Part shown: positions 6,373 through 28,217 of the stretch, piece after piece | How the letters are laid out: the number at the start of each line of letters is the position of its first letter | Numbering within the stretch: the first letter of the stretch is position 1 | From: Geminicoccaceae bacterium | GTDB lineage: Bacteria; Pseudomonadota; Alphaproteobacteria; Geminicoccales; Geminicoccaceae | Length of the DNA: 64,000 nt | NCBI GenBank assembly: GCA_028279345.1 | Contig: JANQNY010000077.1 | Location: forward strand, 62,001-126,000 | Direction: 5' to 3' | The notes under the pieces: model-generated | The model's database searches: none | What the model saw: the letters and a program-made list of their open reading frames with translations, nothing else | Told to the model about the DNA's origin: nothing | Position numbers and translations under genes: made by a program

Positions 6373-7431
6373 CTACCAGACCCGTCCGCGGGCGGCGACC
6401 TGAGCCTCCCCCAGGACGCGACCGCCGCGGACCGTCGTCACGGCGTCGAATAGGTTCGAGACCACGCAGGCGTGGTTCGGCAGGATGCGCACGCGTTCGC
6501 CGACTTCGAGGTCGATCGGCTGCTCGCTGACAAGCCGGCCGTGCTCCTCCGAGAGCTGGTCGATGACGATGTCGTCGCGGCCGAGGACGTGGCCGTAGCC
6601 TGTCATGGTGCGAATGTCGGAACTGAGTGCCTTCGAGCCGGCATCGATGATCGCGCGGTGCGGCGTCGGCACCGACACGACCGTCGCCAGCACTGTAAGC
6701 GCGCAGTCGGCGAGCGTGCAGGTGCTGTCGAGCACGAGCGAGCGGTCCATGTAGACGTACGTGCCCGGCCGATACTCGTTGACAACCGGTGCCTCGTGCG
6801 CGCGCCACATGTCGGGCGAGCCACCGGAGGTCACGACGTCGACCTCGAGGCCGGTGGCTTCCAAGAGCGCCTTCGTCCGGGACAGCAAGCGCTGGGCGCC
6901 GGCAGGGCCACCTGTGCGCGGATAGGTCATGAGCCCACCGAAGATGAGGCCGGGCGCGTCGTCGATCGTGCGGGCGAGCTGGACGGCCTCCTCGGGTGTC
7001 TGGACGCCGCAGCGTGCAGCACCCGTGTCACATTCGACCAACACGCGAAGCGGCGGCCCGTTCCCGAACGCCCCGGAGAGACCGTCGACGACCGTCGGAT
7101 TGTCGGCGACGACGGCCAGGCGCACGCGCTCGGCAAGGTGCCGCAGCCGCCGGAGCTTCGCCTCGCCGAGGATGCCGTAGGTGATGAGCACGTCGTCGAG
7201 GCCGCCGCCCTCGACCATGGCTTCGGCCTCGCTCACCTTCTGGCAGGTGATGCCGACGGCGCCGGCTGCGATCTGGCGTCGGGCGAGGAAGGGCAGCTTA
7301 TGCGTCTTGATGTGTGGCCGCACGCGGAGGCCGTGTCCGTTCGCATAGGCCTGGAAGCGGTCAATGTTGCGTTCGGCGATGTCGAGATCGACGAGCACGG
7401 CCGGCGTGTCGACCTCGGCGTACGCCGTCAT
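6373..7431 (-). CDS. DSD1-fold PLP enzyme (D-threonine aldolase / D-serine dehydratase-like)
   Basis: A fold-type III PLP enzyme of 352 residues: an alanine-racemase-like N-terminal barrel plus a DSD1 C-terminal domain. The PLP-lysine motif RPHIKTHK lies at about residues 39-45, and the Schiff-base lysine is expected at about 42. CQKVSEAE follows, as in D-threonine aldolases. Near the C-terminus ILPNHACVVSNLFD supplies the histidine and cysteine that bind the divalent metal. Likely chemistry is aldol cleavage or dehydration of a D-3-hydroxy amino acid. The ATG at 7431 is used because upstream residues are not family-like. The amino-acid/Na+ symporter gene just upstream suggests linked uptake. 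Confidence 0.85.
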   Translation of the reverse strand: MTAYAEVDTPAVLVDLDIAERNIDRFQAYANGHGLRVRPHIKTHKLPFLARRQIAAGAVGITCQKVSEAEAMVEGGGLDDVLITYGILGEAKLRRLRHLAERVRLAVVADNPTVVDGLSGAFGNGPPLRVLVECDTGAARCGVQTPEEAVQLARTIDDAPGLIFGGLMTYPRTGGPAGAQRLLSRTKALLEATGLEVDVVTSGGSPDMWRAHEAPVVNEYRPGTYVYMDRSLVLDSTCTLADCALTVLATVVSVPTPHRAIIDAGSKALSSDIRTMTGYGHVLGRDDIVIDQLSEEHGRLVSEQPIDLEVGERVRILPNHACVVSNLFDAVTTVRGGRVLGEAQVAARGRVW

Positions 7432-7629
7432 CGGTGGCTCGCGGGTGCGCTCGCCCGGATCCAGCCATTGGCCATTGGCCCGTCTCCCAGTTCGGGCATG
7501 CCCAGGGACGCGACCTGAAGCTTGGCCGATCCGACGGCTGGTGCCCAAGACATATGCGCGCGCTCGCAACTTGCCGACAAGCCCTCAATCTCGAGGGCGC
7601 CCACGGGCAGCGGGCCGCCGTCCGCCCGT

Positions 7630-9060
7630 TCAGCGGACGTCGGTCCACGCGGTCGTGTCGACGTCGAGGTCGGGGAACTTCTCCGGATCGAACACCGGGT
7701 GCTCCTTGCCCTCGGCGAGCTGGCCCCGATAGTCGTTGAGCACCCTGAGCGCCACGGGGAACAGCATGGCGATGGCGACGAGGTTCACCAGCGCCAAGAT
7801 GCCCATCATCGGATCGGAGAAGAAGAAGACGGCGGTTGCCCCGGGCGCCGTGGCGCCGAGGAAGATGATCCCGACGATGGCAACCCGGAGGACCTGCCGC
7901 GCGATGGTGCTGTCGGTGAAGACGGTGAGTGCGTTTTCGCCAAGGTAGTAGTTGTAGATGATGGAGCTGAAGGCGAACAGCAGGATAGCCAAGGATAGGA
8001 AGTACTCGCTCCAGCCGCCGACATGTGAGGCTAGCGAGTCCTGGGTGAGGACCACGCCGTTGATGTCCTGGGCGCCGGCGACATAGACGTCACCGAGCAG
8101 GATGATCATCGCCGTGCAGGTGCAGATGATGATCGTGTCGATGAACACCGAGAAAGACTGGACGATGCCCTGGCTGATGGGGTGGCGCACATAGGCTGCA
8201 GCGGCGACGTTGGGCGCGCTGCCGAGCCCGGCCTCGTTGGAGAAGAGGCCGCGGCGGAGGCCCTGCGCGATGGCCGCCCCCATGCCGCCGCCGACCGCCT
8301 CCTGGAGGCCGAAGGCGTTGGTGACGATAGTGTAGAGCACGCCCGGCACCGAGAAGATGTTGATGAGGATGATCAGCAGCGCCATGCCGATATAGCCGAA
8401 CGCCATGACCGGCACGATGACGTCGGCGACCTTGGCGATGCGCTTGATGCCGCCGTAGAAGATGATGCCGCAGGCGACCGCCAGGAGGACACCGGTCCAC
8501 AGGCGCTCGACGCCAAGGCTGTCGTTGATGGCGCCGGCCACGGTGTTGCCCTGGAAGGCGTTGAAGCCGAGCGCGAAGGCAGCGATGAGCGAGATCGCGT
8601 AGATCACCGCGAGCCACTTGAATTCCTTGCCTAGCCCGTGGCGGATGTACTGCGCCGGCCCGCCGCGGAAGGTGCCGTCCCCTTCGTTGCGCTTGTAGAC
8701 CTGGGCCAGGCTGCACTCGACGAGGCTCGTGCACATGCCGATCAGCGCGATGACCCACATCCAAAAGACCGCGCCCGGCCCGCCGAGCGTGATGGCCACG
8801 GCGACGCCGGCGATATTGCCGCCGCCCACCCGGCCGCCGACGCTGACAAAGAGCGCCTCACGCGAGCTGACATGTCCCTCGGCCCTCGGCTGGCGGCTGG
8901 GCCGCAGCACATCGAACATCCGCGTGAAGAAGCGGAACTGGATGAAGCCCGTGGCGATGGTGAAGAAACAGCCGAGTACGACGAGGAAGGGGATCAGGGA
9001 CCAGCCCCAGGTCCCGTCGCCGATGGCGCCGAAGACCCATTCAATGAATGCCATGTCCAC
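7630..9060 (-). CDS. Alanine/glycine:Na+ symporter (AGCS family)
   Basis: A sodium-coupled amino-acid carrier of 476 residues with about ten hydrophobic helices. Family hallmarks seen are the GRVGGGNIAGVAVAI segment (about residues 75-90), then CTSLVECSLAQVYK, FRGGPAQYI and a later GLFSNEAGLGSAPNVAAAA stretch typical of AGCS carriers. It would sit in the cytoplasmic membrane and import alanine, glycine or a D-amino acid. The PLP enzyme gene lies 198 bp downstream on the same strand and could act on the imported substrate. Confidence 0.92.
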   Translation of the reverse strand: MDMAFIEWVFGAIGDGTWGWSLIPFLVVLGCFFTIATGFIQFRFFTRMFDVLRPSRQPRAEGHVSSREALFVSVGGRVGGGNIAGVAVAITLGGPGAVFWMWVIALIGMCTSLVECSLAQVYKRNEGDGTFRGGPAQYIRHGLGKEFKWLAVIYAISLIAAFALGFNAFQGNTVAGAINDSLGVERLWTGVLLAVACGIIFYGGIKRIAKVADVIVPVMAFGYIGMALLIILINIFSVPGVLYTIVTNAFGLQEAVGGGMGAAIAQGLRRGLFSNEAGLGSAPNVAAAAYVRHPISQGIVQSFSVFIDTIIICTCTAMIILLGDVYVAGAQDINGVVLTQDSLASHVGGWSEYFLSLAILLFAFSSIIYNYYLGENALTVFTDSTIARQVLRVAIVGIIFLGATAPGATAVFFFSDPMMGILALVNLVAIAMLFPVALRVLNDYRGQLAEGKEHPVFDPEKFPDLDVDTTAWTDVR

Positions 9061-17187: not shown

Positions 17188-18009
17188 TCAAAGCACCCGC
17201 CGGGCACGTCCTCCGATCTGCTCCGTGATCTCAGCGGCGGTGTTGCGGACCGTCGCGCCGACTTCGGCTATGCGCGCATCCGGCAACCGGACGGTTGGCC
17301 CCGATACGGAGATACCGGCGATCGCCTCGCGATGCTCGTTGAAGATCGCGGCCGCGACGCATCGCATGCCGGAGTGGCGCTCCTCATCATCGAACGACCA
17401 ACCGCGCGCTTTGGTGGCGTCGAGATCCGCGAACAGATCGGAGGGTTTCGTGAGGGTCTGGGCAGTGTGCTCCGGTAGGCCGCGGCTCTCGAGGAGCCGC
17501 TCGACCCGCTCGCGTGACAACTCCGCTAGCAGGGCTTTGCCGATCCCCGACGCGTGCATGCTGCCGCGCGTTCCGGGCGGGAAGAAAGCCCGGATCGGAT
17601 TAGGCGTCTCAACCTGGCTGACGAAGACGACGTCTCCCGCATTGGCGATCCCCAGATTGGCCGTCTCGCCTGTCTCCTCCACCAAGCGGCGCATCGCCTT
17701 GCGCGCTGCGTCCACCAGATTCGTCCGTTCGAGAAACGCGCTGCCGATGCGAAACGCTTCGAGCCCGACCGTCCAGTGCTGACTGTCACCGTCGAACGTG
17801 ACGATGCCATGGCGCTCCATCGTCGTCAGCAACCGGTGCGCCGTCGAGGCTGGCATGCCTGCGCGGAGCGCGACGTCGGACAAAGTCGAGGCGCCGGCAC
17901 TGGCAATCAGCGCAAGCAGATGCAGCCCGCGATCGAGCGCCTGCGCGGGCGCCGCTTGGCTCTCGGCGGGATCCTTGCGTGGTCGGCCGCGCGGCCTCTT
18001 GGTCGTCAT
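17188..18009 (-). CDS. bhcR: IclR-family regulator of the beta-hydroxyaspartate cycle
   Basis: A 273-residue IclR-type regulator. It has a basic N-terminal tail (RPRGRPRK), a winged helix-turn-helix at about residues 25-85 (STLSDVALRAGMPASTAHRLL) and an effector domain with the family's MHASGIGKALLA segment. Divergent placement 219 bp from bhcABCD matches the known bhcR arrangement, where BhcR controls the operon in response to glyoxylate. That response is established for the family member in Paracoccus and inferred here. The AT-rich intergenic stretch holds two IclR-like palindromes. Confidence 0.88.
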   Translation of the reverse strand: MTTKRPRGRPRKDPAESQAAPAQALDRGLHLLALIASAGASTLSDVALRAGMPASTAHRLLTTMERHGIVTFDGDSQHWTVGLEAFRIGSAFLERTNLVDAARKAMRRLVEETGETANLGIANAGDVVFVSQVETPNPIRAFFPPGTRGSMHASGIGKALLAELSRERVERLLESRGLPEHTAQTLTKPSDLFADLDATKARGWSFDDEERHSGMRCVAAAIFNEHREAIAGISVSGPTVRLPDARIAEVGATVRNTAAEITEQIGGRARRVL

Positions 18010-18069
18010 TCGGTCCTCCAGCGATCGTCGGTTCGCGTGCCGCTGGAGGATAGCCGGTATGCAAAAAAA

Positions 18070-18104
18070 TTTTCCAGCTCGTTGGCAAGCGAGCTAATGG
18101 AAAA
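18070..18104. promoter_or_regulatory. Candidate BhcR operator 1 (imperfect palindrome)
   Basis: TTTTCCA at 18070-18076 is mirrored by TGGAAAA at 18098-18104. Inner arms GCTCG (18077-18081) and CGAGC (18090-18094) also pair, with three extra bases on the right. The TTTCCA/TGGAAA arms match the general IclR operator style. The site lies 61 bp upstream of bhcR and just upstream of a TATAAT at 18117-18122. Confidence 0.5.
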
Positions 18105-18150
18105 CAAAATAGATTTTATAATCATGTGGTTAGAAGATAAATTTTTATAT

Positions 18151-18165
18151 TGAAAAGTATTTTCA
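18151..18165. promoter_or_regulatory. Candidate BhcR operator 2 (perfect palindrome)
   Basis: TGAAAA, then GTA, then TTTTCA: a perfect 6-bp inverted repeat with a 3-bp centre, the usual size of an IclR-family site. It lies 64 bp before the bhcA start codon and downstream of the TATAAT at 18117-18122. A third half-site TTGAAAT follows at 18172. The surrounding roughly 120 bp is strikingly AT-rich for this window. Confidence 0.5.
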
Positions 18166-18228
18166 GAAAAATTGAAATCTCAACGCGCATGGCATATCCA
18201 TCGGATCAAGCAGGAGGGAGGACGCGCG

Positions 18229-19434
18229 ATGAGAGGACAAAACCCGGTCTTCATTCCCGGGCCGACCAACATCCCGGATCGGCTGCGCTATGCGATGAGC
18301 GTCCAGACGATCGATCATCGCGCTCCCGATTTCATCGAGCTGCTGACCCCGTTGCTGGAAGACCTCAAGAAGGTGTTCAAGACGCGTTCGGGGCAGGTGA
18401 TCGCTTTCCCCTCTTCTGGAACCGGCGGCTGGGAGGCGGCGATCACCAACACGCTCTCGCCAGGGGACAAGGTTGTGGTCGCCCGCTTCGGCATGTTCTC
18501 ACATCGCTGGATCGACCTCTGCCAACGTCACAAGCTCGACGTCGAGGTCATCGAGTGTCCCTGGGGGACGGGCGCCCCCGCTGATCTCTACGCCGAGCGT
18601 TTGGCCGCCGATCGCGACCACAAGATCAAAGCGGTGCTCGTGACGCACAACGAGACCGCCACCGGCGTCCGCTCCGACATCGCCGCAGTGCGGCGCGCCA
18701 TGGACGCCAGCGGCCATCCCGCGATGCTCCATGTGGATTGCGTCTCGTCGCTCGCTTCGATGGATTTTCGCATGGACGAATGGGGCGTCGATCTGGCCGT
18801 CTCCGGATCGCAGAAAGGCTTCATGCTGGCGACGGGGATGGCGATCATCGGCGTCAGCCGGAAGGCGCTCGCCGCCGCCCAGCAGGCGCAGTGCCCGCGG
18901 ACCTTCTTCGACTTCCGCGACATGGCCGGCGCCAATGCCAGGGGCGGGTTTCCCTACACGCCGCCACTGCAGATCATGTACGGGCTGCGCGAAAGCCTGA
19001 ACATGCTGTTCGAAGAGGGCCTGGACAGTGTCTTCGCGCGGCATCGCCGCATCGCCGAGGGCGTTCGCTGTGCGGTGCGCGCCTGGGGGCTCGATCTCTG
19101 CGCACAATCGCCGGAGCTCTACTCAGAGACGGTCAGCGCCATCTACGTGCCGCCGGGCTTCAACAGCGACGCGCTCACCAACCACATCTTCGATACCTAC
19201 GGCGTCTCCTTCGGCGTCGGGCTCGGAGAGATGGCCGGCAAGGCGTTCCGCATCGGCCATCTCGGCTCGTTGACCGACGTCATGACACTGTCGGGGCTGG
19301 CGACGGTGGAGATGGCTATGGCCGATCTCGGCTATCCGGTGGAGCTCGGTTCGGGCACCCGCGCAGCGCAGGAATACTATCGTAAGACGGCCGCGGCCAA
19401 CGCCGAAGACCGCGGTGTGAAGAGGGCGTCATGA
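18229..19434 (+). CDS. bhcA: Aspartate-glyoxylate aminotransferase
   Basis: A class V PLP aminotransferase of 401 residues. In the beta-hydroxyaspartate cycle BhcA transaminates glyoxylate to glycine using aspartate as amino donor. Sequence marks are the N-terminal IPGPTNIPDRLR of the serine-glyoxylate type family, SGTGGWEAA (phosphate-binding loop, about residues 63-71), HVDCVSS with the ring-stacking Asp (about 170), and SGSQKGF with the PLP lysine at about 196. The ATG at 18229 follows a strong ribosome site (AGGAGGGAGGA). Its stop overlaps the bhcB start (ATGA). The four-gene order decides the call over serine-glyoxylate aminotransferase. Confidence 0.92.
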   Translation: MRGQNPVFIPGPTNIPDRLRYAMSVQTIDHRAPDFIELLTPLLEDLKKVFKTRSGQVIAFPSSGTGGWEAAITNTLSPGDKVVVARFGMFSHRWIDLCQRHKLDVEVIECPWGTGAPADLYAERLAADRDHKIKAVLVTHNETATGVRSDIAAVRRAMDASGHPAMLHVDCVSSLASMDFRMDEWGVDLAVSGSQKGFMLATGMAIIGVSRKALAAAQQAQCPRTFFDFRDMAGANARGGFPYTPPLQIMYGLRESLNMLFEEGLDSVFARHRRIAEGVRCAVRAWGLDLCAQSPELYSETVSAIYVPPGFNSDALTNHIFDTYGVSFGVGLGEMAGKAFRIGHLGSLTDVMTLSGLATVEMAMADLGYPVELGSGTRAAQEYYRKTAAANAEDRGVKRAS

Positions 19435-20396
19435 GCAACACGGATGGATTGACGGTCCCTACCTACGAGCACGTCGTCGCGGCGCACGAGCGGATCAAGC
19501 CGTACATCCACGAGACGCCGATCCTGACATCGACCTATCTGAACGGCCTTACCGGCGCTGAGCTGTTCTTCAAGTGTGAGAACTTTCAGAAAGCTGGCGC
19601 GTTCAAGGTCCGTGGCGCTTCGAACGCAGTGCTTGGGCTGAGTGCTGACCAGGAGGAACTCGGCGTCGCGACGCACTCCTCCGGCAACCACGCGCTCTCG
19701 CTCTCCTACGCCGCGGGGCGACGCGGCGTGCCCTGCCATGTCGTGATGCCGCGCACGGCGCCGGAGGCGAAGAAGGACGCGGTGCGTGGCTATGGCGGGC
19801 TGATCACTGAATGCGAGCCGTCGACCTCTTCGCGCGAAGCTGTGTTCGCGGCGTTGCAGCAGCAGACCGGCGCGAACTTCGTACATCCCTACAACGACCC
19901 GCGCGTCATCGCCGGACAGGGCACCTGCTCGCGCGAGCTGATGTCCCAAGTCGACGGCCTCGACGCTGTGATCGCGCCGATTGGCGGGGGCGGCATGGTC
20001 TCCGGCTGCTGCCTCACGCTTTCGGCCATTGCGCCCGAGGTGGAGATCTACGCCGCCGAGCCGGAGCAAGCAGACGACGCCTATCGGTCGCTCAAGGCCG
20101 GCCACATCATCGCCGAAGACGCGCCGCAGACGGTTGCCGACGGGCTCAAAGTACCGCTCAAAGAGCTGACCTGGCATTTCGTGTCGAACCACGTGACCGA
20201 CATTCTGACCGCCAGCGAGCAAGAGATCGTCGACGCGATGAAGCTCACTTGGCAGCGCATGAAGATCGTCATGGAGCCGAGCTGCGCCGTGCCGCTGGCG
20301 ACGATCCTCAAGAACAAACACGTCTTCGCCGGGAAACGCGTCGGCGTGATCATCTCCGGCGGAAACGTCGACTTAGCGAAACTACCTTGGATGTGA
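19431..20396 (+). CDS. bhcB: beta-hydroxyaspartate dehydratase
   Basis: A fold-type II PLP enzyme of 321 residues, serine/threonine dehydratase-like. BhcB removes water from erythro-beta-hydroxyaspartate to give iminosuccinate. Seen are the PLP-lysine segment FQKAGAFKVRGA (Lys about 59), SSGNHALS, and the tetraglycine phosphate loop GGGG (about 185-188). Length equals that of single-domain threo-3-hydroxyaspartate ammonia-lyases, with no ACT domain. The start overlaps the bhcA stop by 4 bp, so translation is coupled. Confidence 0.92.
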   Translation: MSNTDGLTVPTYEHVVAAHERIKPYIHETPILTSTYLNGLTGAELFFKCENFQKAGAFKVRGASNAVLGLSADQEELGVATHSSGNHALSLSYAAGRRGVPCHVVMPRTAPEAKKDAVRGYGGLITECEPSTSSREAVFAALQQQTGANFVHPYNDPRVIAGQGTCSRELMSQVDGLDAVIAPIGGGGMVSGCCLTLSAIAPEVEIYAAEPEQADDAYRSLKAGHIIAEDAPQTVADGLKVPLKELTWHFVSNHVTDILTASEQEIVDAMKLTWQRMKIVMEPSCAVPLATILKNKHVFAGKRVGVIISGGNVDLAKLPWM

Positions 20397-20415: not shown

Positions 20416-21579
20416 ATGAACGCGCCACTTAAATCTGAAGAGCTCGAAGTCGGCTTCGACATCCCCGCCGCCATCGGCATGGATGAGAGCGCGATCCAAA
20501 CGCCCTGCCTGGTGCTCGACCTGGACGCGCTGGAACGCAACGTCGCCAAGATGGGCGCGATCGCCAAAGAGATGGGCGTGCGCCACCGGGCGCACGGCAA
20601 AATGCACAAATCCGTCGATGTGGCGCTCCTGCAGGAGAAGCTCGGCGGCGCCTGCGGCGTTTGCTGCCAGAAGGTCTCGGAGGCGGAAGTCTTTGCGCGC
20701 GGCGGGATCAAGGACGTGCTGGTGTCGAACCAGGTGCGCGACCCCGCGAAGATCGATCGGCTCGCGCGCATACCAAAGCTCGGCGCGCGCACGATCTGCT
20801 GCGTCGACGATCTGGACAACGTCGCCGATCTTTCAAAGGCGGCGGTCAGGCATGGCGTCCAGATCGAGTGCCTGGTCGAGATCGACTGCGGCGCCGGGCG
20901 CTGCGGGGTTACGACCACGCCGGAGGTGGTCGCGATCGCGAAGGCGATCGACGCTGCCGACGGGCTCCGCTTCGCTGGCATCCAGGCGTATCAGGGTGCC
21001 ATGCAGCATCTTGATCTCTACGAGGACCGCAAGGCGAAGATCGACATCGCCGTCGCAATGGTCGCAGATGCGGTCAAAGAACTGCAAGCCGAGGGATTGA
21101 GCTGCGATATTGTCGGTGGTGGCGGCACCGGCTCATATTACTTTGAAGGCACGTCTGGCGTCTACAACGAACTGCAATGCGGCTCCTACGCCTTCATGGA
21201 CGCGGACTACGGCCGCATCCTCGACAAGGATGGCAGGCGGATCGATCAGGGCGAGTGGGAAAACGCGCTCTTCATCCTCACCTCCGTCATGTCCCATGCG
21301 AAGGCAGAGAAGGCGATCTGCGACGCCGGGCTCAAGGCTCAGTCCGTCGACAGCGGTTTGCCGTCCGTTTTTGGCCGCGACGACGTTGAATACGTGAAAT
21401 GCTCGGACGAGCACGGCGTGATCGCCGATCCGCAGGGCGTGTTGAAAGTCAACGAGAAGCTCCGCCTCGTTCCCGGCCACTGCGATCCGACCTGCAACGT
21501 GCATGACTGGTACGTCGGCGTGCGCAGCGGAAAGGTCGAGGCGCTCTGGCCGGTCAGCGCGCGCGGCAAGGCTTACTGA
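20416..21579 (+). CDS. bhcC: beta-hydroxyaspartate aldolase
   Basis: A DSD1-fold (type III) PLP aldolase of 387 residues. BhcC condenses glycine and glyoxylate to erythro-beta-hydroxyaspartate. The PLP-lysine motif is RAHGKMHK (about 58-65), followed by CCQKVSEAE. Near the C-terminus LVPGHCDPTCN provides the metal-binding His and Cys of the D-threonine aldolase family. It starts 19 bp after bhcB. It is a distant paralogue of the enzyme at 6373-7431, from which it differs in the lysine motif (HGKMHK versus HIKTHK) and in a longer N-terminus. Confidence 0.92.
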   Translation: MNAPLKSEELEVGFDIPAAIGMDESAIQTPCLVLDLDALERNVAKMGAIAKEMGVRHRAHGKMHKSVDVALLQEKLGGACGVCCQKVSEAEVFARGGIKDVLVSNQVRDPAKIDRLARIPKLGARTICCVDDLDNVADLSKAAVRHGVQIECLVEIDCGAGRCGVTTTPEVVAIAKAIDAADGLRFAGIQAYQGAMQHLDLYEDRKAKIDIAVAMVADAVKELQAEGLSCDIVGGGGTGSYYFEGTSGVYNELQCGSYAFMDADYGRILDKDGRRIDQGEWENALFILTSVMSHAKAEKAICDAGLKAQSVDSGLPSVFGRDDVEYVKCSDEHGVIADPQGVLKVNEKLRLVPGHCDPTCNVHDWYVGVRSGKVEALWPVSARGKAY

Positions 21580-21608
21580 GCGCGCGCGTCCGGCGGAGGA
21601 AAGTGGTC

Positions 21609-22595
21609 ATGGACGAAGCAAGCGGCGGCGTCCTCGTCGTGTCTGAGGAAGACTGCCAGCGCCTGGTGGGGCGATTGGCGGCGTTTGCGGCCGTCGAGGC
21701 GGTGTTCGCTGCGATGGAGCGGGGCGACGCTCACAATTTCCCAGTCGTGCGCGAAGCCATAGGCCACGCCGACGCGCTCTACGGCTTCAAGTCCGGCTTC
21801 GATCGCGCAGGGCTCGTCCTCGGCGTGAAGTCCGGCGGCTACTGGCCCGGTAATTCGACGAAGGGGCTCACCAACCACCAGTCCACCGTGTTCTTGTTCG
21901 ATCCGGATACCGGCAGGCTCAAGGCGCTCGTCGGCGGCAACTATCTGACGGCAGTCCGCACCGCGGCGTCCTCCGCCGTTTCGATCGCACGGCTGGCGCG
22001 CAAGGACGCGAAGGTGCTGGGCATGATTGGCGCCGGGCACCAAGCCGCCTTTCAACTGCGCGCTGCGGCCGAGCAACGCGCGTTCGAGCGCGTGGTGGCC
22101 TGGAACCGTCGTTCGGAGGCGCTGGCACGCCTCGCCGAGGTGGCCGAGGAGATCGGCCTGCCGTTCGAAAGCGCCTCGGCGGAGGCCGTCGGCGCGCAGG
22201 CGGACGTCATCATCACGATCACCTCGGCCTTCGAGCCGCTGCTCATGGCGGACTGGATCAAACCGGGGGCGCATCTCGCCTGCATGGGGACGGACACCAA
22301 GGGCAAGCAAGAGGTCGACCCGGCGCTCCTCGCCAAGGCGCGCGTGTTCACGGACGAGGTGGCGCAGTCGGTGACGATCGGCGAGGCGCAGCACGCGGTC
22401 GCCGCCGGGCTCCTAGCGGAAAGTGCCGTCATGCCGATCGGCGCGGTGATCAACGGCGCGGACCCAGGACGGCGCTCGGCGGACGAGATCACGCTTTTCG
22501 ACGGCACCGGCGTCGGCCTGCAGGATCTCGCAGTTGCTGACGTGGCCGCGCGCGGCGCGCGCGCGTCCACACGGCCGCAGGTCGTGACCATCTGA
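21609..22595 (+). CDS. bhcD: Iminosuccinate reductase
   Basis: A 328-residue member of the ornithine cyclodeaminase / mu-crystallin family. BhcD reduces iminosuccinate to L-aspartate with NADH, closing the cycle and regenerating the amino donor for BhcA. Seen are the substrate segment FKSGFDR with the conserved Lys/Arg, the NTKGLTNHQS loop, and the dinucleotide motif GMIGAGHQAAF (about 138-148). The ATG at 21609 is preferred over the GTG at 21603 because GGAGGA ends 8 nt before it. Confidence 0.9.
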   Translation: MDEASGGVLVVSEEDCQRLVGRLAAFAAVEAVFAAMERGDAHNFPVVREAIGHADALYGFKSGFDRAGLVLGVKSGGYWPGNSTKGLTNHQSTVFLFDPDTGRLKALVGGNYLTAVRTAASSAVSIARLARKDAKVLGMIGAGHQAAFQLRAAAEQRAFERVVAWNRRSEALARLAEVAEEIGLPFESASAEAVGAQADVIITITSAFEPLLMADWIKPGAHLACMGTDTKGKQEVDPALLAKARVFTDEVAQSVTIGEAQHAVAAGLLAESAVMPIGAVINGADPGRRSADEITLFDGTGVGLQDLAVADVAARGARASTRPQVVTI

Positions 22596-22643
22596 ACGCC
22601 GCTGCGGCGCCATCGTCGTCGCGCGCAAAAGGGAGAAGCCGAC

Positions 22644-23798
22644 ATGGGTGTGAGCGACTGCCACAGCTTCAAGGATTTCCGCGCCCTTGCGAAGCGGCGG
22701 TTGCCGGCGCCGATCTTTCACTACATCGACGGCGCCGCCGATGACGAGGTGACCTATCGCCGGAACACCGAGGCCTATGAGCGCTGCGATTTGGTGCCGA
22801 ACGTGCTGACCGGCGTCGAAGACGTGGACATGAGCGTCACGGTCATGGGGCAGAAGCTGGCGATGCCCGTCTATTGCGCGCCGACGGCTCTGCAGCGGCT
22901 GTTCCACCACGATGGCGAACGGGCGGTGGCGCACGCGGCGGCGAAGCACGGCACGATGTTCGGCGTCTCCTCGCTGGGCACGGTCAGCGTCGAGGAACTC
23001 GCGGCCATGGTGAACACGCCGAAGATGTTCCAGTTCTATTTTCATAAGGATCGCGGTTTGAACGACGCGCTTCTCGAGCGCGCCAAGGCCGCCAAGTTCG
23101 ACGTGATGGCGCTGACGGTCGACACGATCACCGGCGGCAATCGTGAGCGCGATCTGCGCACGGGATTCACGTCGCCGCCTCGCCTGACCCTTGGCAGCAT
23201 ATTGAGCTTCGCGATGCGTCCAAGTTGGGCGCTCAACTATCTCACCCATGAGAGGTTCGATCTGCCGCACCTTTCCGACCAGGTGAACGCGGGCAGCAAT
23301 TTGGCGACCTCCGTCGGCGACTATTTCTCGACCATGCTCGACCAGTCGATGAGCTGGAAGGATGCCGAAGCGCTCTGCGCCAAGTGGGACGGTCAGTTTG
23401 CGCTAAAGGGCGTGATGAGCGTCGCCGACGCCAAGCGTGCCGTCGACATCGGCTGCACCGGCATCATGGTCTCGAACCATGGCGGCCGGCAGCTCGACGG
23501 CTCGCGCAGCCCATTCGATCAGCTGGCGGAGATCGTCGACGCGGTCGGCGACCAGATCGACGTCATCTGCGAGGGCGGCGTCCAGCGTGGCACGCATGTG
23601 CTGAAGGCGCTCTCTGTCGGCGCGAAGGCGTGTTCCGGCGGCCGGCTTTACCTCTACGCGCTCGGCGCCGCGGGCCAGGGTGGCGTCGAGAAGGCGCTCG
23701 GCGCGCTCAGGAGTGAGATCGAGCGCGGCATGAAGCTGATGGGCGTGACAAAGCTCGACCAGCTCACGCGTGAGAACCTGCGCTACCGCGGAGTGTAG
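22644..23798 (+). CDS. FMN-dependent 2-hydroxyacid oxidase/dehydrogenase (glycolate or lactate oxidase-like)
   Basis: A 384-residue enzyme of the L-2-hydroxyacid oxidase family, oxidising a 2-hydroxyacid to the 2-oxoacid with FMN. Active-site residues visible are Tyr of HYIDGAADDE (about 27), the FMN-binding PTALQRLFHHDGE loop, Lys of ALKGVMS (about 255), and His/Arg in SNHGGRQLDGS (about 279 and 282). The segment around residues 165-230 that forms loop 4 is present. It follows bhcD by 48 bp with its own ribosome site (AAAAGGGAGAAG). Position suggests glycolate to glyoxylate feeding of the cycle; lactate or mandelate remain possible. Confidence 0.85.
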   Translation: MGVSDCHSFKDFRALAKRRLPAPIFHYIDGAADDEVTYRRNTEAYERCDLVPNVLTGVEDVDMSVTVMGQKLAMPVYCAPTALQRLFHHDGERAVAHAAAKHGTMFGVSSLGTVSVEELAAMVNTPKMFQFYFHKDRGLNDALLERAKAAKFDVMALTVDTITGGNRERDLRTGFTSPPRLTLGSILSFAMRPSWALNYLTHERFDLPHLSDQVNAGSNLATSVGDYFSTMLDQSMSWKDAEALCAKWDGQFALKGVMSVADAKRAVDIGCTGIMVSNHGGRQLDGSRSPFDQLAEIVDAVGDQIDVICEGGVQRGTHVLKALSVGAKACSGGRLYLYALGAAGQGGVEKALGALRSEIERGMKLMGVTKLDQLTRENLRYRGV

Positions 23799-23977: not shown

Positions 23978-24955
23978 ATGAAGATCTGTATCTTCGGCGC
24001 AGGCGCCATTGGCGGCTATATGGGAGCGAAGCTGGCCCAGGCCGGCGCGGATGTGAGCCTTGTCGCGCGGGGTCCGCACCTGGCGGCGATGCGCGAGGGC
24101 GGGCTTACTCTCATCGAGGGCGGCGAGACGGTCACCGTTCCCGTCACCGTTTCGGAAGATCCGACGGAGCTTGGGCCGCAGGACTACGTGATCATTACAC
24201 TCAAGGCGCACTCGGTGCCGTCGGTAGTCGAGAGCGTGCTGCCATTGCTCGGACCGGAGACAACCGTCGTATCGGGCGTGAACGGCCTGCCATGGTGGTA
24301 CTTCCACAAGATTGGAGGTCCTCTCGAGGGCACCCGCCTAGCCTCTGTCGATCCCGGGAACACCCAGTGGGACGGATTCGGCCCGGACCGGGTGTTGGGT
24401 TGTGTTGTCTATCCCGCAGCGGAAGTCATCGAGCCCGGCGTCATCAAGCATATCCAAGGCAACCGTTTCTCGTTGGCCGAGCCGGATGGGTCGAAATCGG
24501 AACGGGCTCTCAGGCTGTCGAAGACGCTGAGCGGGGCGGGACTCAAGGCCCCGGTCCGGCCGAATCTCCGCGACGAGATCTGGGTAAAGCTCTGGGGCAA
24601 CCTCTCATTCAACCCGATCTCGGCGCTCACCCATGCCACGCTCGACGTGGTTTGCACCGATCCCGGCACCCGCGAGGTCGCACGGAACATGATGCTCGAA
24701 GCGCAGGCGATCGCCGAGAAACTCGGCGTCAAGTTCCCGATCGACGTGGATCGCCGGATCCAGGGTGGTGCGGACGTGGGTGCCCATCGCACCTCGATGC
24801 TGCAGGACCTCGACGCCGCGCGACCGATGGAGATCGACGCGCTGGTCGGCTCCCTTCAGGAACTGGGCGAGGTGACCGGGACGCCGACGCCCACCATCGA
24901 TACGGTACTGGCGCTCGTCAAGCTGCGGGCGCGGGTTGCTGGCCTCTACGGCTGA
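23978..24955 (+). CDS. 2-dehydropantoate 2-reductase family protein (ApbA/PanE-like)
   Basis: A 325-residue NADP-dependent ketopantoate reductase homologue. The N-terminal Rossmann motif GAGAIGG (residues 7-13) is clear. The family catalytic lysine segment appears as EIWVKLWGN(L)SFN, with conserved KLWxN-x-x-FNP, and a C-terminal helical domain follows. Sited between the glyoxylate operon and a TTT transporter, it may be a catabolic 2-oxoacid reductase rather than the pantothenate enzyme. That is inference from context only. Confidence 0.85.
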   Translation: MKICIFGAGAIGGYMGAKLAQAGADVSLVARGPHLAAMREGGLTLIEGGETVTVPVTVSEDPTELGPQDYVIITLKAHSVPSVVESVLPLLGPETTVVSGVNGLPWWYFHKIGGPLEGTRLASVDPGNTQWDGFGPDRVLGCVVYPAAEVIEPGVIKHIQGNRFSLAEPDGSKSERALRLSKTLSGAGLKAPVRPNLRDEIWVKLWGNLSFNPISALTHATLDVVCTDPGTREVARNMMLEAQAIAEKLGVKFPIDVDRRIQGGADVGAHRTSMLQDLDAARPMEIDALVGSLQELGEVTGTPTPTIDTVLALVKLRARVAGLYG

Positions 24956-25019
24956 CCGCTCGGACCCGGAGGGACGTACGGCGCAGCGTGCCGAGATGCG
25001 GGTCACGCATGGCAGGCAC

Positions 25020-26531
25020 TCAAGAGCCCCAACGCCCTCTGCGCAACAGCCTCAGGACCGGAAGGAAGATCAACACCAGTGCGACAATCGTGATCGGCCC
25101 GGCGACGGGCCGCGTGAAGAATATCGAAGGATCGCCGGACGACAGCAGCAGTGACTGGCGGAGCGTCGGCTCGGCAATCGGTCCCAGAACAATGGCCAGG
25201 ACGGCTGGGGCGAGCGGATAGTCGAACTTCCGCAGGAAGAATGCTCCGAGCCCAAAAATCACCATCAGCCAGACATCAAACATGTCGCGCGTGGCTGCGT
25301 ATCCGCCGGCGATTGACAAGACAAAGATCATGGGCGCCAGGATGGTGAATGGCATCCGCAGCATCGAGACGAAGAGCGGAATAAAGGCCAAGTTGATCAG
25401 TACAGCCACAAGATTCGAGATGTAGAATGAGCCGATTAGTCCCCAGACGAACTCCGTTTCGTCTACAAACAGTCGTGGTCCCGGCACAAGCCCCCAGATG
25501 ACCATGCCGCCAAGCAGTATGGCCGTCGTCGGCGAACCGGGAATGCCGAGCGTCAGCATCGGCAGCATTGATCCTGTCGATGCGGAATTGTTGGCCGCCT
25601 CCGGCGCCGCCACCCCGTCGGGATTGCCTTTGCCGAAGTCCTCGGGCTTGCGTGAGACCATCTTGGCGACACCGTAGGACATGAGCGATCCGGGCGTCGC
25701 GCCCGCCGCGGGAAGCACACCAACGAAGAAGCCGAGGAAAGAGCCGATGGTAGTGCCCTTCCATGCTCGCGACGCGGCCTCCTTGGTCTCCGAGGCCATT
25801 CCTTTAACCGTCATTCTCGGCGTCGTCGTCGTCACCTCACCGCGTGTCTGCTCGATCGTCCAGAGCATCTCGCCGATGCCGTAGACCCCGATCGCCAGGA
25901 CGAGAAAGCCGATCCCCTGCAGAAAGCCCGTGTTGTCGAAGAGGACCAGCCGCGGTGCGCCTGAGATCTGGTCGAATCCCACCGCGCCGAGGACGAGGCC
26001 AAGGCAAATGGAAAAGATGGTCTTGGGGATGTCGTCGCCACCGAGGCCAATGAACGTGGCAAACGCCAGAAGCATCAGCGCGAAGACTTCAGGCGGACCG
26101 AACGACAGAGCAACGGAGGCGAGAGCCGGCGCAAAAAGCGTGAACAGGATATTGGCGACCGTACCGCCGACGAACGACGCAAGCGCCGCCGTCACCAGAG
26201 CGAAGCTTGCCCGGCCCTGCCGCGCGAGCGGACGCCCGTCGAAGGTCGTCGCAACAGCTGTCGACGCGCCGGGGATGCCGAGCGTTACTGACGAAATCGC
26301 GCCACCATACATCGCGCCGTAGTAGATGGCGGCGAGGAAGATGATCGCCGACGCCGGCGGCACCAGAAACGTAACGGGCAGGAGAATGGCGACCCCGTTG
26401 ACTGACCCCAGGCCGGGCATCGCACCGATGAAGAGACCCACCGTGACCCCAATGAGGATCATCACTAGGTTCAACGGCTGCAATGCGAGCAGCATACCGT
26501 CGCCAAGGAGTGTGAGAACTTCCATTGTCAA
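25020..26531 (-). CDS. tctA: Tripartite tricarboxylate transporter large permease (TctA)
   Basis: A 503-residue membrane protein with about twelve hydrophobic segments. TctA marks are GAMPGLGSVNGVAILLP near the N-terminus and its inverted-repeat partner GVLPAAGATPGSLMSYG (about 270-286), each at a re-entrant loop. The motif APEAANNSASTGSMLP is also typical. It is the translocation unit of a TTT carrier for carboxylates. Its 3' end converges on the panE-like gene with 64 bp between stops. Confidence 0.93.
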   Translation of the reverse strand: MTMEVLTLLGDGMLLALQPLNLVMILIGVTVGLFIGAMPGLGSVNGVAILLPVTFLVPPASAIIFLAAIYYGAMYGGAISSVTLGIPGASTAVATTFDGRPLARQGRASFALVTAALASFVGGTVANILFTLFAPALASVALSFGPPEVFALMLLAFATFIGLGGDDIPKTIFSICLGLVLGAVGFDQISGAPRLVLFDNTGFLQGIGFLVLAIGVYGIGEMLWTIEQTRGEVTTTTPRMTVKGMASETKEAASRAWKGTTIGSFLGFFVGVLPAAGATPGSLMSYGVAKMVSRKPEDFGKGNPDGVAAPEAANNSASTGSMLPMLTLGIPGSPTTAILLGGMVIWGLVPGPRLFVDETEFVWGLIGSFYISNLVAVLINLAFIPLFVSMLRMPFTILAPMIFVLSIAGGYAATRDMFDVWLMVIFGLGAFFLRKFDYPLAPAVLAIVLGPIAEPTLRQSLLLSSGDPSIFFTRPVAGPITIVALVLIFLPVLRLLRRGRWGS

Positions 26532-26565
26532 ACGCCTGCTGTTCTGCCGGGCCCCGGCTCTCGGC

Positions 26566-27069
26566 TCAGTAAATGATTTCGTAGAGAATGTTGAATACGG
26601 GATCAGTGAACGGCAAGCCCGTTGGCATCGTGATGCGCATCGCGCCTTCGAAGAAGAAGAACAGTACGAGCGGCGTCACAAGCGAGATGGACAGGCTTAA
26701 AGCCCACCCGTGGCGACCGAGATACCGGATGTAATAGAAAAGGAAGACGGCAACAGCGCCATACATCGATATGATACTGACGAGGCCGACAAAGACCACG
26801 ATACCGCCGCCGACCAGACCAAGCATTCGCCACCCATAGGCGTCGAGAAGAGGCTCGTCAGATTGCGACGGCGGGCTCGTACGGCGCCACCAGTTGAAAG
26901 CGATTGCGCCACAACACAGCAGCATCACGCCGGAAAGCCAGAACGGCCACGCACCGCCTCCCGGCCCCGTGTCAGCAATGTAGCCGATGGGTAGCTCGGC
27001 ACTCTTCCACATCAGGTAGACGGAGAAGAGGGCCAGAATGCCGACCGTCACGATCTCGCCGACGCGCAT
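26566..27069 (-). CDS. tctB: Tripartite tricarboxylate transporter small subunit (TctB)
   Basis: A 167-residue membrane protein with four hydrophobic helices and the TctB fold pattern (G-P-G-G-G-A-W-P-F-W near the first helix end; FVGLVSIISMYGAVAVFLFYYIRYLG in the second half). It lies 34 bp before tctA and 45 bp after tctC on the same strand, as in a standard tctCBA operon. Confidence 0.9.
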   Translation of the reverse strand: MRVGEIVTVGILALFSVYLMWKSAELPIGYIADTGPGGGAWPFWLSGVMLLCCGAIAFNWWRRTSPPSQSDEPLLDAYGWRMLGLVGGGIVVFVGLVSIISMYGAVAVFLFYYIRYLGRHGWALSLSISLVTPLVLFFFFEGAMRITMPTGLPFTDPVFNILYEIIY

Positions 27070-27114
27070 CTGGCCCCCTGAACCTCCTAAACCATCGGGT
27101 AGGAGCGCTGCGCC

Positions 27115-28083
27115 TCACTCACCGAGCGCGGCGAGCAGCTCCTTGTGGTTCTCGACCTGCAGCGCCCAGTAGTCGCGCTGTTCACCCGCATCCATCCACA
27201 GTGGCGAGAGGCTCTCAGACTCTAGATAGCCCTGCCACTCGTCGCTTTCGTAGATCTGGGCGAAGAGATCTTGATAATAGGCCGCGGCCTCCTCAGACAT
27301 ACCTGGCGCGCCAACGACAGCACGTTGGTTGTAGTAGGAGAAATCGTGACCCAACTCCTTGATGGTCGGAACATCCGGGTAGGCCGGCATACGCTCGTCT
27401 GAGAAAGCGAGCAGCGGTACGAAATCGCCCGCTTCATAGAATCCCTTAGCTTCCGCCGGATTGTTGACGGACGCCATGATCTGCTTTCCCGCGAGGTCCT
27501 TGGCTACCGCACCGCCGCCCTCGTAAGGGATGTACTTGATATCGAGATCATAGGCGCCGGACAGGTAAGCGATGACGATGGAGTCCTCTTGACCTGCGCC
27601 CGTCCCGCCCATCACGAACTCACCGTCCATTGACCTCACCTGCTCGACGAACTCGTCGATTGTGGTGATCCCGGAATCCTTGTGGACCCAAAGCACGAAA
27701 GGATCGACGCCCATCATAGCAATCGGCGTGAAAGTCTGGATGTCGATGCCGAGATTCTCTTGGCGGAGCGGCGTAGTGAAGAACGAGTTGAGCGTCACTA
27801 GGATGGTGTGGTCGGGATCGCTGGCACCGCTAACGTGGATCAGCGCCTCCGCGCCTGAGCCACCGCCCTGGTTGTTGGGCACGAGTGGACGATTGGTGAG
27901 GTCTTTTTGTTCGGCCACCGACTGGATGAATCGGGCAATCTGATCTGCGCCACCACCAGGACCGGCCATGATGACGAAGTCGATAGGTTTACGTGGCTGC
28001 CACTCCTGAGCAACGGCCAGCATCGGTGCCGTAACGATTAAGATAGTGCCGGCTAGTATAAACAAACCCCGTTTCGTGATCAT
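27115..28083 (-). CDS. tctC: Tripartite tricarboxylate transporter substrate-binding protein (TctC/BUG)
   Basis: A 322-residue periplasmic receptor of the BUG family. The signal peptide is at residues 1-25 (MITKR, hydrophobic core, AVAQ). The mature protein opens with the BUG pattern KPIDFVIMAGPGGGADQIAR, where backbone atoms hold a ligand carboxylate. The ATG at 28083 follows AGGAGGA and gives the only sensible signal peptide. The ligand cannot be read; closeness to the glyoxylate operon makes a small dicarboxylate or hydroxyacid attractive. Confidence 0.92.
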   Translation of the reverse strand: MITKRGLFILAGTILIVTAPMLAVAQEWQPRKPIDFVIMAGPGGGADQIARFIQSVAEQKDLTNRPLVPNNQGGGSGAEALIHVSGASDPDHTILVTLNSFFTTPLRQENLGIDIQTFTPIAMMGVDPFVLWVHKDSGITTIDEFVEQVRSMDGEFVMGGTGAGQEDSIVIAYLSGAYDLDIKYIPYEGGGAVAKDLAGKQIMASVNNPAEAKGFYEAGDFVPLLAFSDERMPAYPDVPTIKELGHDFSYYNQRAVVGAPGMSEEAAAYYQDLFAQIYESDEWQGYLESESLSPLWMDAGEQRDYWALQVENHKELLAALGE

Positions 28084-28217
28084 GTTGCGAAGTCCTCCTC
28101 TGTTCTGTTCATTTCGCAGCGCTTTCGGTTGAGCCTGCGGTTCGCCCCGCCCGGTCCTATAACGGAAGCGAAGGGGCGCGTCTTCAACTTTAGCTCGGCT
28201 GGTGGTCAATCACACCC

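Follow-up and report, generated by a model that had tools for sequence, protein, structure and literature searches.

The bhcABCD operon in the 64,000-nucleotide stretch of Geminicoccaceae DNA that was analysed (the window) ends in a fifth gene, encoding an FMN enzyme that, with a probability of around one half, oxidises L-lactate, possibly takes glycolate as a lesser substrate and hands the electrons to the respiratory chain, all from the tail of a glyoxylate-responsive operon. We infer the preference for L-lactate, a quinone as the electron acceptor and an association of the enzyme with the membrane. The genes and intervals concerned are the following (window coordinates):

17188-18009, minus strand: bhcR, IclR-type regulator, divergent from bhcA (NF045644, 377.9 bits, cut-off 350)
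18010-18228, no strand: bhcR-bhcA intergenic region, holding a forward promoter-like site (consensus match only)
18229-19434, plus strand: bhcA, L-aspartate--glyoxylate aminotransferase (NF045640, 719.1 bits, cut-off 650)
19431-20396, plus strand: bhcB, beta-hydroxyaspartate dehydratase (NF045641, 595.7 bits, cut-off 550)
20416-21579, plus strand: bhcC, 3-hydroxy-D-aspartate aldolase (NF045642, 751.3 bits, cut-off 690)
21603-22595, plus strand: bhcD, iminosuccinate reductase (NF045643, 558.7 bits, cut-off 500)
22596-22643, plus strand: 48-bp gap between the bhcD stop and the start of the FMN gene, with a ribosome-binding-like purine stretch
22644-23798, plus strand: fifth operon gene, for an FMN-dependent L-2-hydroxyacid dehydrogenase that is probably of L-lactate type (PF01070, 430 bits)

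BhcA, BhcB, BhcC, BhcD and BhcR all score above the NCBIfam equivalog cut-offs and bhcABCD stand in order, which identifies the cluster as a BHAC operon. The start of bhcA was placed at the ATG at 18229, which is preceded by the stretch AGGAGGGAGG; the longer open reading frame is 18172-19434. The five proteins, the bhcABCD order and the divergent bhcR are as in Paracoccus denitrificans, but in the window a further catalytic gene is appended, and in that organism glycolate oxidase is encoded apart from the cluster, as glcDEF (PMC11323563). The appended gene starts with an ATG that has a purine-rich, ribosome-binding-like stretch on its 5' side, and its product of 384 amino acids spans positions 1-349 of the 350 of Pfam FMN_dh (PF01070; 430 bits against a cut-off of 24.9). 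No other full-length FMN_dh is encoded in the 4.44 Mb assembly; three further matches score 21-25 bits, and each covers only some 75-95 of the 350 profile positions. A consensus scan found neither promoter nor terminator in the 48-bp gap, and the stretch gave a single forward promoter-like site, at 18082-18110, 5' of bhcA. From the short gap and the conserved gene order, the FMN gene is probably co-transcribed with bhcABCD. The first-pass annotation had described an FMN enzyme of a single subunit, complete in its active site, directly behind bhcD and part of the operon; the open reading frame, the PF01070 match, the residues and the recurrence of the linkage, both treated below, all agree with that description.

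The operon was not extended further downstream. The PanE-like reductase gene at 23978-24955 was rejected as a member, as 179 bp separate its start from the stop of the FMN gene and the same neighbour was found in 0 of 80 related loci above the thresholds used; the transporter-like genes beyond were rejected on account of their opposite orientation. According to the open reading frames, the ketopantoate-reductase-family gene in 23978-28209 faces genes resembling those for tripartite tricarboxylate transporters (the transporter-like frames gave no NCBIfam matches). Elsewhere in the window, at 6373-9060 on the minus strand, a BhcC-like protein (222.8 bits against a cut-off of 690) is encoded beside the gene for an AGCS amino-acid carrier.

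The position of the FMN gene recurs in other genomes. Within a sample of 80 related loci, taken from genome contigs at 75-87% identity and in several cases only 3-6 kb long, bhcD was found directly upstream of the FMN gene in four (L005, L006, L010 and L058). At L026 purine genes separate the FMN gene from a bhc operon some 5 kb upstream, and the available flanking DNA of the remaining 75 loci, short in several cases, holds no bhcABCD gene. A maximum-likelihood tree built with 101 proteins unites the window copy and the four others in one clade (support 99/96). In the BhcD and BhcC trees these genomes are likewise grouped closely, with a few bhc operons lacking the FMN gene interspersed. Compared in pairs, the five FMN genes differ at 48-60% of the fourfold sites (59/124 to 72/121) and at 27-67 of the 384 codons by replacement. 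As about half of the fourfold-degenerate sites differ among the five copies, the bhcD-FMN linkage is, on these sequence comparisons, old and kept, and the operon linkage claimed for the window is thus upheld as a trait of one conserved lineage. The bhc operon itself was probably acquired in this lineage, since BhcC passes its cut-off in just one of the 31 genomes of the order to which the window belongs.

All catalytic residues of spinach glycolate oxidase (Y24, Y129, D157, R164, K230, H254 and R257) are present in the FMN enzyme, and these positions are invariant in the 88 proteins of more than 55% identity (88/88, the window's protein counted). The choice between glycolate and L-lactate has been connected to three other positions, which according to Table 2 of PMC7020209 read T/W/V in glycolate oxidases and M/L/F or M/V/F in L-lactate oxidases. 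In an alignment with spinach glycolate oxidase and LldD the window enzyme reads T81/L111/F228, where the third position was mapped, tentatively, onto V204 of the spinach enzyme because the Nostoc lactate oxidase sequence was absent from the comparison. The plant-type triad is therefore matched by T81 (T78 in spinach) and not by L111 and F228, which replace W108 and V204, while the triad of the cyanobacterial and algal L-lactate oxidases is matched at the Leu and the Phe with Thr in place of Met. The same difference sets the window enzyme apart from the L-lactate oxidase of Nostoc (No-LOX), with which it has Leu and Phe in common, in a comparison that uses the triad published in PMC7020209. One of the three positions would thus be of glycolate type and two of lactate type, and the combination is typical of the close relatives (T in 88/88, L in 83/88 and F in 83/88). 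When the five bhc-linked copies were compared with 76 relatives without bhc genes directly upstream, positions 14 and 119 were the only ones to separate the two sets, and both fall outside the ligand positions that were checked. Because nothing but residues 14 and 119 sets them apart, we read this as the bhc-linked enzymes having kept the chemistry and the substrate class of their non-bhc relatives.

With regard to family, the enzyme is a member of a distinct subfamily with little annotation; it shares about 36% identity with LldD of E. coli, and with spinach glycolate oxidase 39% over the aligned positions. It scores below both LldD models (NF033901 and NF008398; 271 bits against a cut-off of 550 and 301 against 376), and a role as MftD (pre-mycofactocin synthase, TIGR03966) was rejected at 267 bits, far below the cut-off of 470.85. 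LldD of E. coli, and the lldD products of RhaR regulons, share family and catalytic residues with the window enzyme, and LldD also has the internal segment that is largely missing from the spinach enzyme, but the specificity positions of LldD read V/V/L. Spinach glycolate oxidase (1gox) has the family, the fold (TMq 0.83) and all catalytic residues in common with the window enzyme, which differs by an extra segment of some 20-30 residues. Residue 310 is Glu in all 81 closest members and Asp in 16 of 16 more distant relatives, as in the spinach enzyme (D285); it lies in a loop that we take to contact FMN, and Glu310 may be a mark of the subfamily.

A characterised member or reported activity of this exact subfamily was not found, and for that reason the neighbouring genes of the relatives were used as a clue to the substrate. 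They were collected by tblastn with annotated neighbours; a tally of longest open reading frames was dropped as unreliable in GC-rich DNA. In 7 of the 80 loci a gene for a respiratory D-lactate dehydrogenase follows the FMN gene directly (at L066, NF008387 with 919 bits). Further relatives came from 35 plasmid records matching at 60-80% identity, in 16 of which the annotations were inspected. Plasmids of Marivivens and Aestuarium carry operons in the order TRAP transporter, FMN gene, dld; a Methylorubrum plasmid has an L-lactate permease gene followed by the FMN gene, and in Alteromonas and Thioclava plasmids the FMN gene is the last of a rhamnose operon. The breakdown of rhamnose via RhaEW has been described to yield L-lactate, and lldD genes were placed in the RhaR regulons of some Rhodobacterales (PMC3870299). 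Relatives of the window enzyme likewise sit in operons for lactate and for rhamnose. A clear sign of the substrate was lacking in nine of the 16 plasmids (Chelatococcus, Phyllobacterium, S. meliloti, A. macleodii, Rhizobium ACO-34A, two of Microvirga, A. pusense and Burkholderia), of which the A. pusense plasmid has the FMN gene behind an FGGY-type kinase gene and the Burkholderia stretch is unannotated.

The operons at L005 and L006 continue beyond the FMN gene with a TRAP binding protein and a TRAP permease gene, whose products are 74% and 67% identical to their counterparts in the TRAP-FMN-dld operon of Marivivens. The nearest solved relatives of the binding proteins include 2hzk (listed as SmoM, which we take to be the 2-oxo-acid protein TakP), the ketoacid-binding 7ug8 and, at a greater distance, the lactate-binding 2zzv and 7e9y, which suggests an importer for 2-oxo or 2-hydroxy acids. 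Such a pair is absent behind the FMN gene of the window, and the sole similar match in the window is a permease of 34% identity at 11.5-12.7 kb; the contigs of L010 and L058 end too near the FMN gene to show one.

A structure predicted from the single sequence had a mean pLDDT of 40.5, and an AlphaFold2 model built from 41 aligned sequences (mean pLDDT 83.3, pTM 0.87) was used instead. Among solved structures it is matched by mandelate dehydrogenase as well as by glycolate and lactate oxidases. The longest alignment, over 366 residues (Z 45.1, rmsd 2.2), is that with the monotopic membrane protein 6bfg, an (S)-mandelate dehydrogenase, yet the two proteins are 28% identical; human HAO1 (6gmb) ties with it (Z 44.6, 349 residues, rmsd 2.0). 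Because of this tie the modelled fold does not settle the substrate. The segment around residues 183-215, modelled with moderate confidence, is largely absent from spinach glycolate oxidase and aligns with LldD, and the case of the mandelate dehydrogenase suggests that it would bind to the membrane.

Taken as an L-lactate dehydrogenase, the enzyme would bind and deprotonate an L-2-hydroxy acid by means of Y132, D160, R167, H279 and R282, and two electrons would pass to FMN and from there, probably, to the quinone pool. A bhcABCD operon would have taken it up at its end in a single event and kept it since, along with a TRAP importer in two of the genomes. In the presence of glyoxylate the operon would allow several 2-hydroxy acids to be used, glyoxylate being converted to oxaloacetate via the BHAC and L-lactate to pyruvate by the FMN enzyme, with glycolate probably as its weaker second substrate. 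L111 and F228, the unchanged active site, the D-lactate dehydrogenase, L-lactate permease and rhamnose neighbours and the presence of GlcDEF count in favour of L-lactate, as do the likeness of the L005/L006 TRAP proteins to those of Marivivens, the LldD-like segment 183-215 and the alignment with 6bfg. On the other hand, the plasmid relatives with a lactate context form a sister group of 60-70% identity, and in the group above 75% the D-lactate dehydrogenase neighbours are the only clue to lactate. Furthermore, glycolate oxidation would be the better fit for a BHAC operon that BhcR, a sensor of glyoxylate, controls, T81 is of glycolate type, the genomes of L010 and L058 (G414 and G415) have no detectable GlcF, and the relative near bhc in Agrobacterium hints at a real link to glyoxylate metabolism.

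These last points bring in the main rival to L-lactate, a single-subunit dehydrogenase or oxidase dedicated to glycolate, which, with the TRAP importer, would feed glyoxylate into the BHAC and make the operon a self-contained glycolate-to-aspartate cassette able to replace GlcDEF. We consider this possible but doubtful. The adjacency to bhcD in five genomes of one clade, kept despite the 48-60% difference at fourfold sites, would suit it, as would the T81 of glycolate oxidases and the importer genes at L005 and L006, with ketoacid- and lactate-binding proteins among their nearest solved relatives. In the other two of the 16 inspected plasmids, both from Agrobacterium, an FMN gene of a separate tree branch lies about 1.1 kb from bhcR, and as this proximity arose in a separate branch it argues for a second origin and against an accidental link. 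The residues tell against the specificity for glycolate that had been proposed at first, with one of the three published glycolate-determining positions present, two of lactate type and an active site no different from that of the non-bhc relatives; the gene neighbours of the relatives, which point to L-lactate, weaken it further. The same proposal had the FMN enzyme possibly taking the place of the three-subunit glycolate dehydrogenase, and this had to be abandoned for the window genome, since GlcD, GlcE and GlcF are all encoded elsewhere in it, on contig C49: GlcD (551 bits with NF008408, below the cut-off of 897) adjoins GlcE (276 bits, cut-off 284), and GlcF follows about 53 kb away at C49:152413-153672 (461 bits, cut-off 333). 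None of 16 genomes passes the cut-off of TIGR00387, so the GlcD calls rest on the score together with the neighbouring GlcE and GlcF. The glcDE genes (97308-99209) and glcF do not form one operon in this genome (G000), and the readings that come after GlcE we take to be PAS-like and carbonic-anhydrase-like.

GlcD, a GlcE-like match next to it and GlcF also occur in the genomes of L005 and L006 (G412 and G413). In P. denitrificans a deletion of glcDEF was reported to abolish growth on glycolate (PMC11323563), which likewise speaks against a dedicated FMN enzyme. The genomes of L010, L058 and L026 (G414, G415 and G416), which are MAGs of unreported completeness, gave no GlcF match above 35 bits, and their best GlcD-type matches score 359 bits in G414 (where a contig end cuts the match), 232 in G415 and 336 in G416, so that for G414 and G415 a convincing full GlcD is lacking as well. 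In the lineages of L010 and L058 the FMN enzyme may therefore replace GlcDEF. The more far-reaching scenario of an alphaproteobacterial lineage with a seven-gene glycolate cassette (bhcABCD, an FMN glycolate dehydrogenase and a two-gene TRAP importer), in which an enzyme derived from an L-lactate dehydrogenase could supplant GlcDEF and GlcDEF was lost in some members, strikes us as unlikely.

Another L-2-hydroxy acid (e.g. mandelate, malate, tartronate or one of longer chain) could be the substrate, with the place in the operon reflecting a wider pathway, but we give this little credence. The subfamily came without a characterised member, mandelate dehydrogenase 6bfg is the best structural match (with Z tied to that of HAO1), and the Glu310 of the 81 closest members, where all 16 more distant relatives have Asp, would be in line with a different substrate. 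The neighbours of the relatives nevertheless point to lactate, genes for the use of mandelate, malate or tartronate were not seen beside the bhc-linked copies, and T81 is bulkier than the Gly that mandelate dehydrogenase presumably has at the same place.

Compared with the conservation of the linkage within its clade, its spread is limited. BhcD passes its cut-off in 14 of 385 genomes of the class; the FMN gene adjoins bhcD in one of these 14, the window's own, and in neither of two sub-cut-off genomes that were added, and the bhc regions of the class sample, some 5-10 kb to each side, contain no FMN gene (0/13). The family of G415 is represented by 394 genomes, of which 166 carry a bhcD. A search of 80 of the 166 at E<=1e-120, a threshold that would overlook distant FMN enzymes, gave a close FMN relative in four, adjoining bhcD in G415 only. 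In 73 more, searched at E<=1e-40, six had a close relative of at least 68% identity, none on the bhcD contig, and no FMN paralogue was found within 20 kb of bhcD among the matches listed. The family survey thus covered 153 of the 166 bhcD-positive genomes, with many short draft contigs and with at least two genomes apparently duplicated (G481/G183 and G720/G280 share coordinates). Altogether the bhcD-FMN adjacency is rare, with 0 of about 165 bhcD-positive genomes besides two chosen for having it. This rarity, and the lack of the L005/L006 TRAP pair behind the window gene, could be taken for a chance neighbourhood, in which random rearrangement put an FMN gene with its own transcript behind bhcD, but the order is shared by five genomes from several lineages whose copies have diverged strongly at synonymous sites, the gaps are short and the 48 bp hold neither promoter nor terminator, which makes this hardly credible.

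PMC11323563 describes the BHAC as a dominant route by which important groups of bacteria assimilate glycolate, and notes that metabolic engineering makes use of it. A bhc operon that comes with an FMN hydroxyacid dehydrogenase, and in relatives with an importer too, would show how the supply of substrate is coupled to the cycle. If glycolate activity were found, the enzyme would be a one-subunit bacterial partner for the BHAC; if it is a lactate dehydrogenase, the operon would couple the use of lactate to the sensing of glyoxylate, which is unreported in the literature searched. In the openly searchable literature, PMC11323563, PMC7020209, PMC3870299, PMC12214560 and PMC4867895 included, an FMN enzyme in a bhc operon is not mentioned.

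Several related loci deserve mention on their own account. The Agrobacterium plasmid loci (L213 and L214) combine a bhc cluster and the FMN hydroxyacid oxidase of the separate branch with a divergent LldR/PdhR-like regulator and with RidA-like, threo-3-hydroxyaspartate ammonia-lyase-like and electron-transfer flavoprotein genes. At L026, L231, L237 and L242 allantoinase genes lie about 1-6 kb from the bhc operons, in three of the four together with urate oxidase; as these genes stand near bhc operons, they suggest that purine breakdown supplies the BHAC with glyoxylate there. In Pelagibacteraceae (L067, L069, L072, L083 and L084) two FMN hydroxyacid dehydrogenase genes stand in tandem. The second shares 57-61% identity with the query, and behind it come an aminotransferase gene, the gene of a GlcD-like FAD enzyme and TRAP transporter genes. 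Finally, cyanobacterial contigs (L019, L030, L041, L043, L046, L048 and L063; Okeania, Crocosphaera, Hydrocoleum and others) carry copies of 80-82% identity that cluster together among the proteobacterial proteins of the tree, a pattern suggestive of gene transfer.
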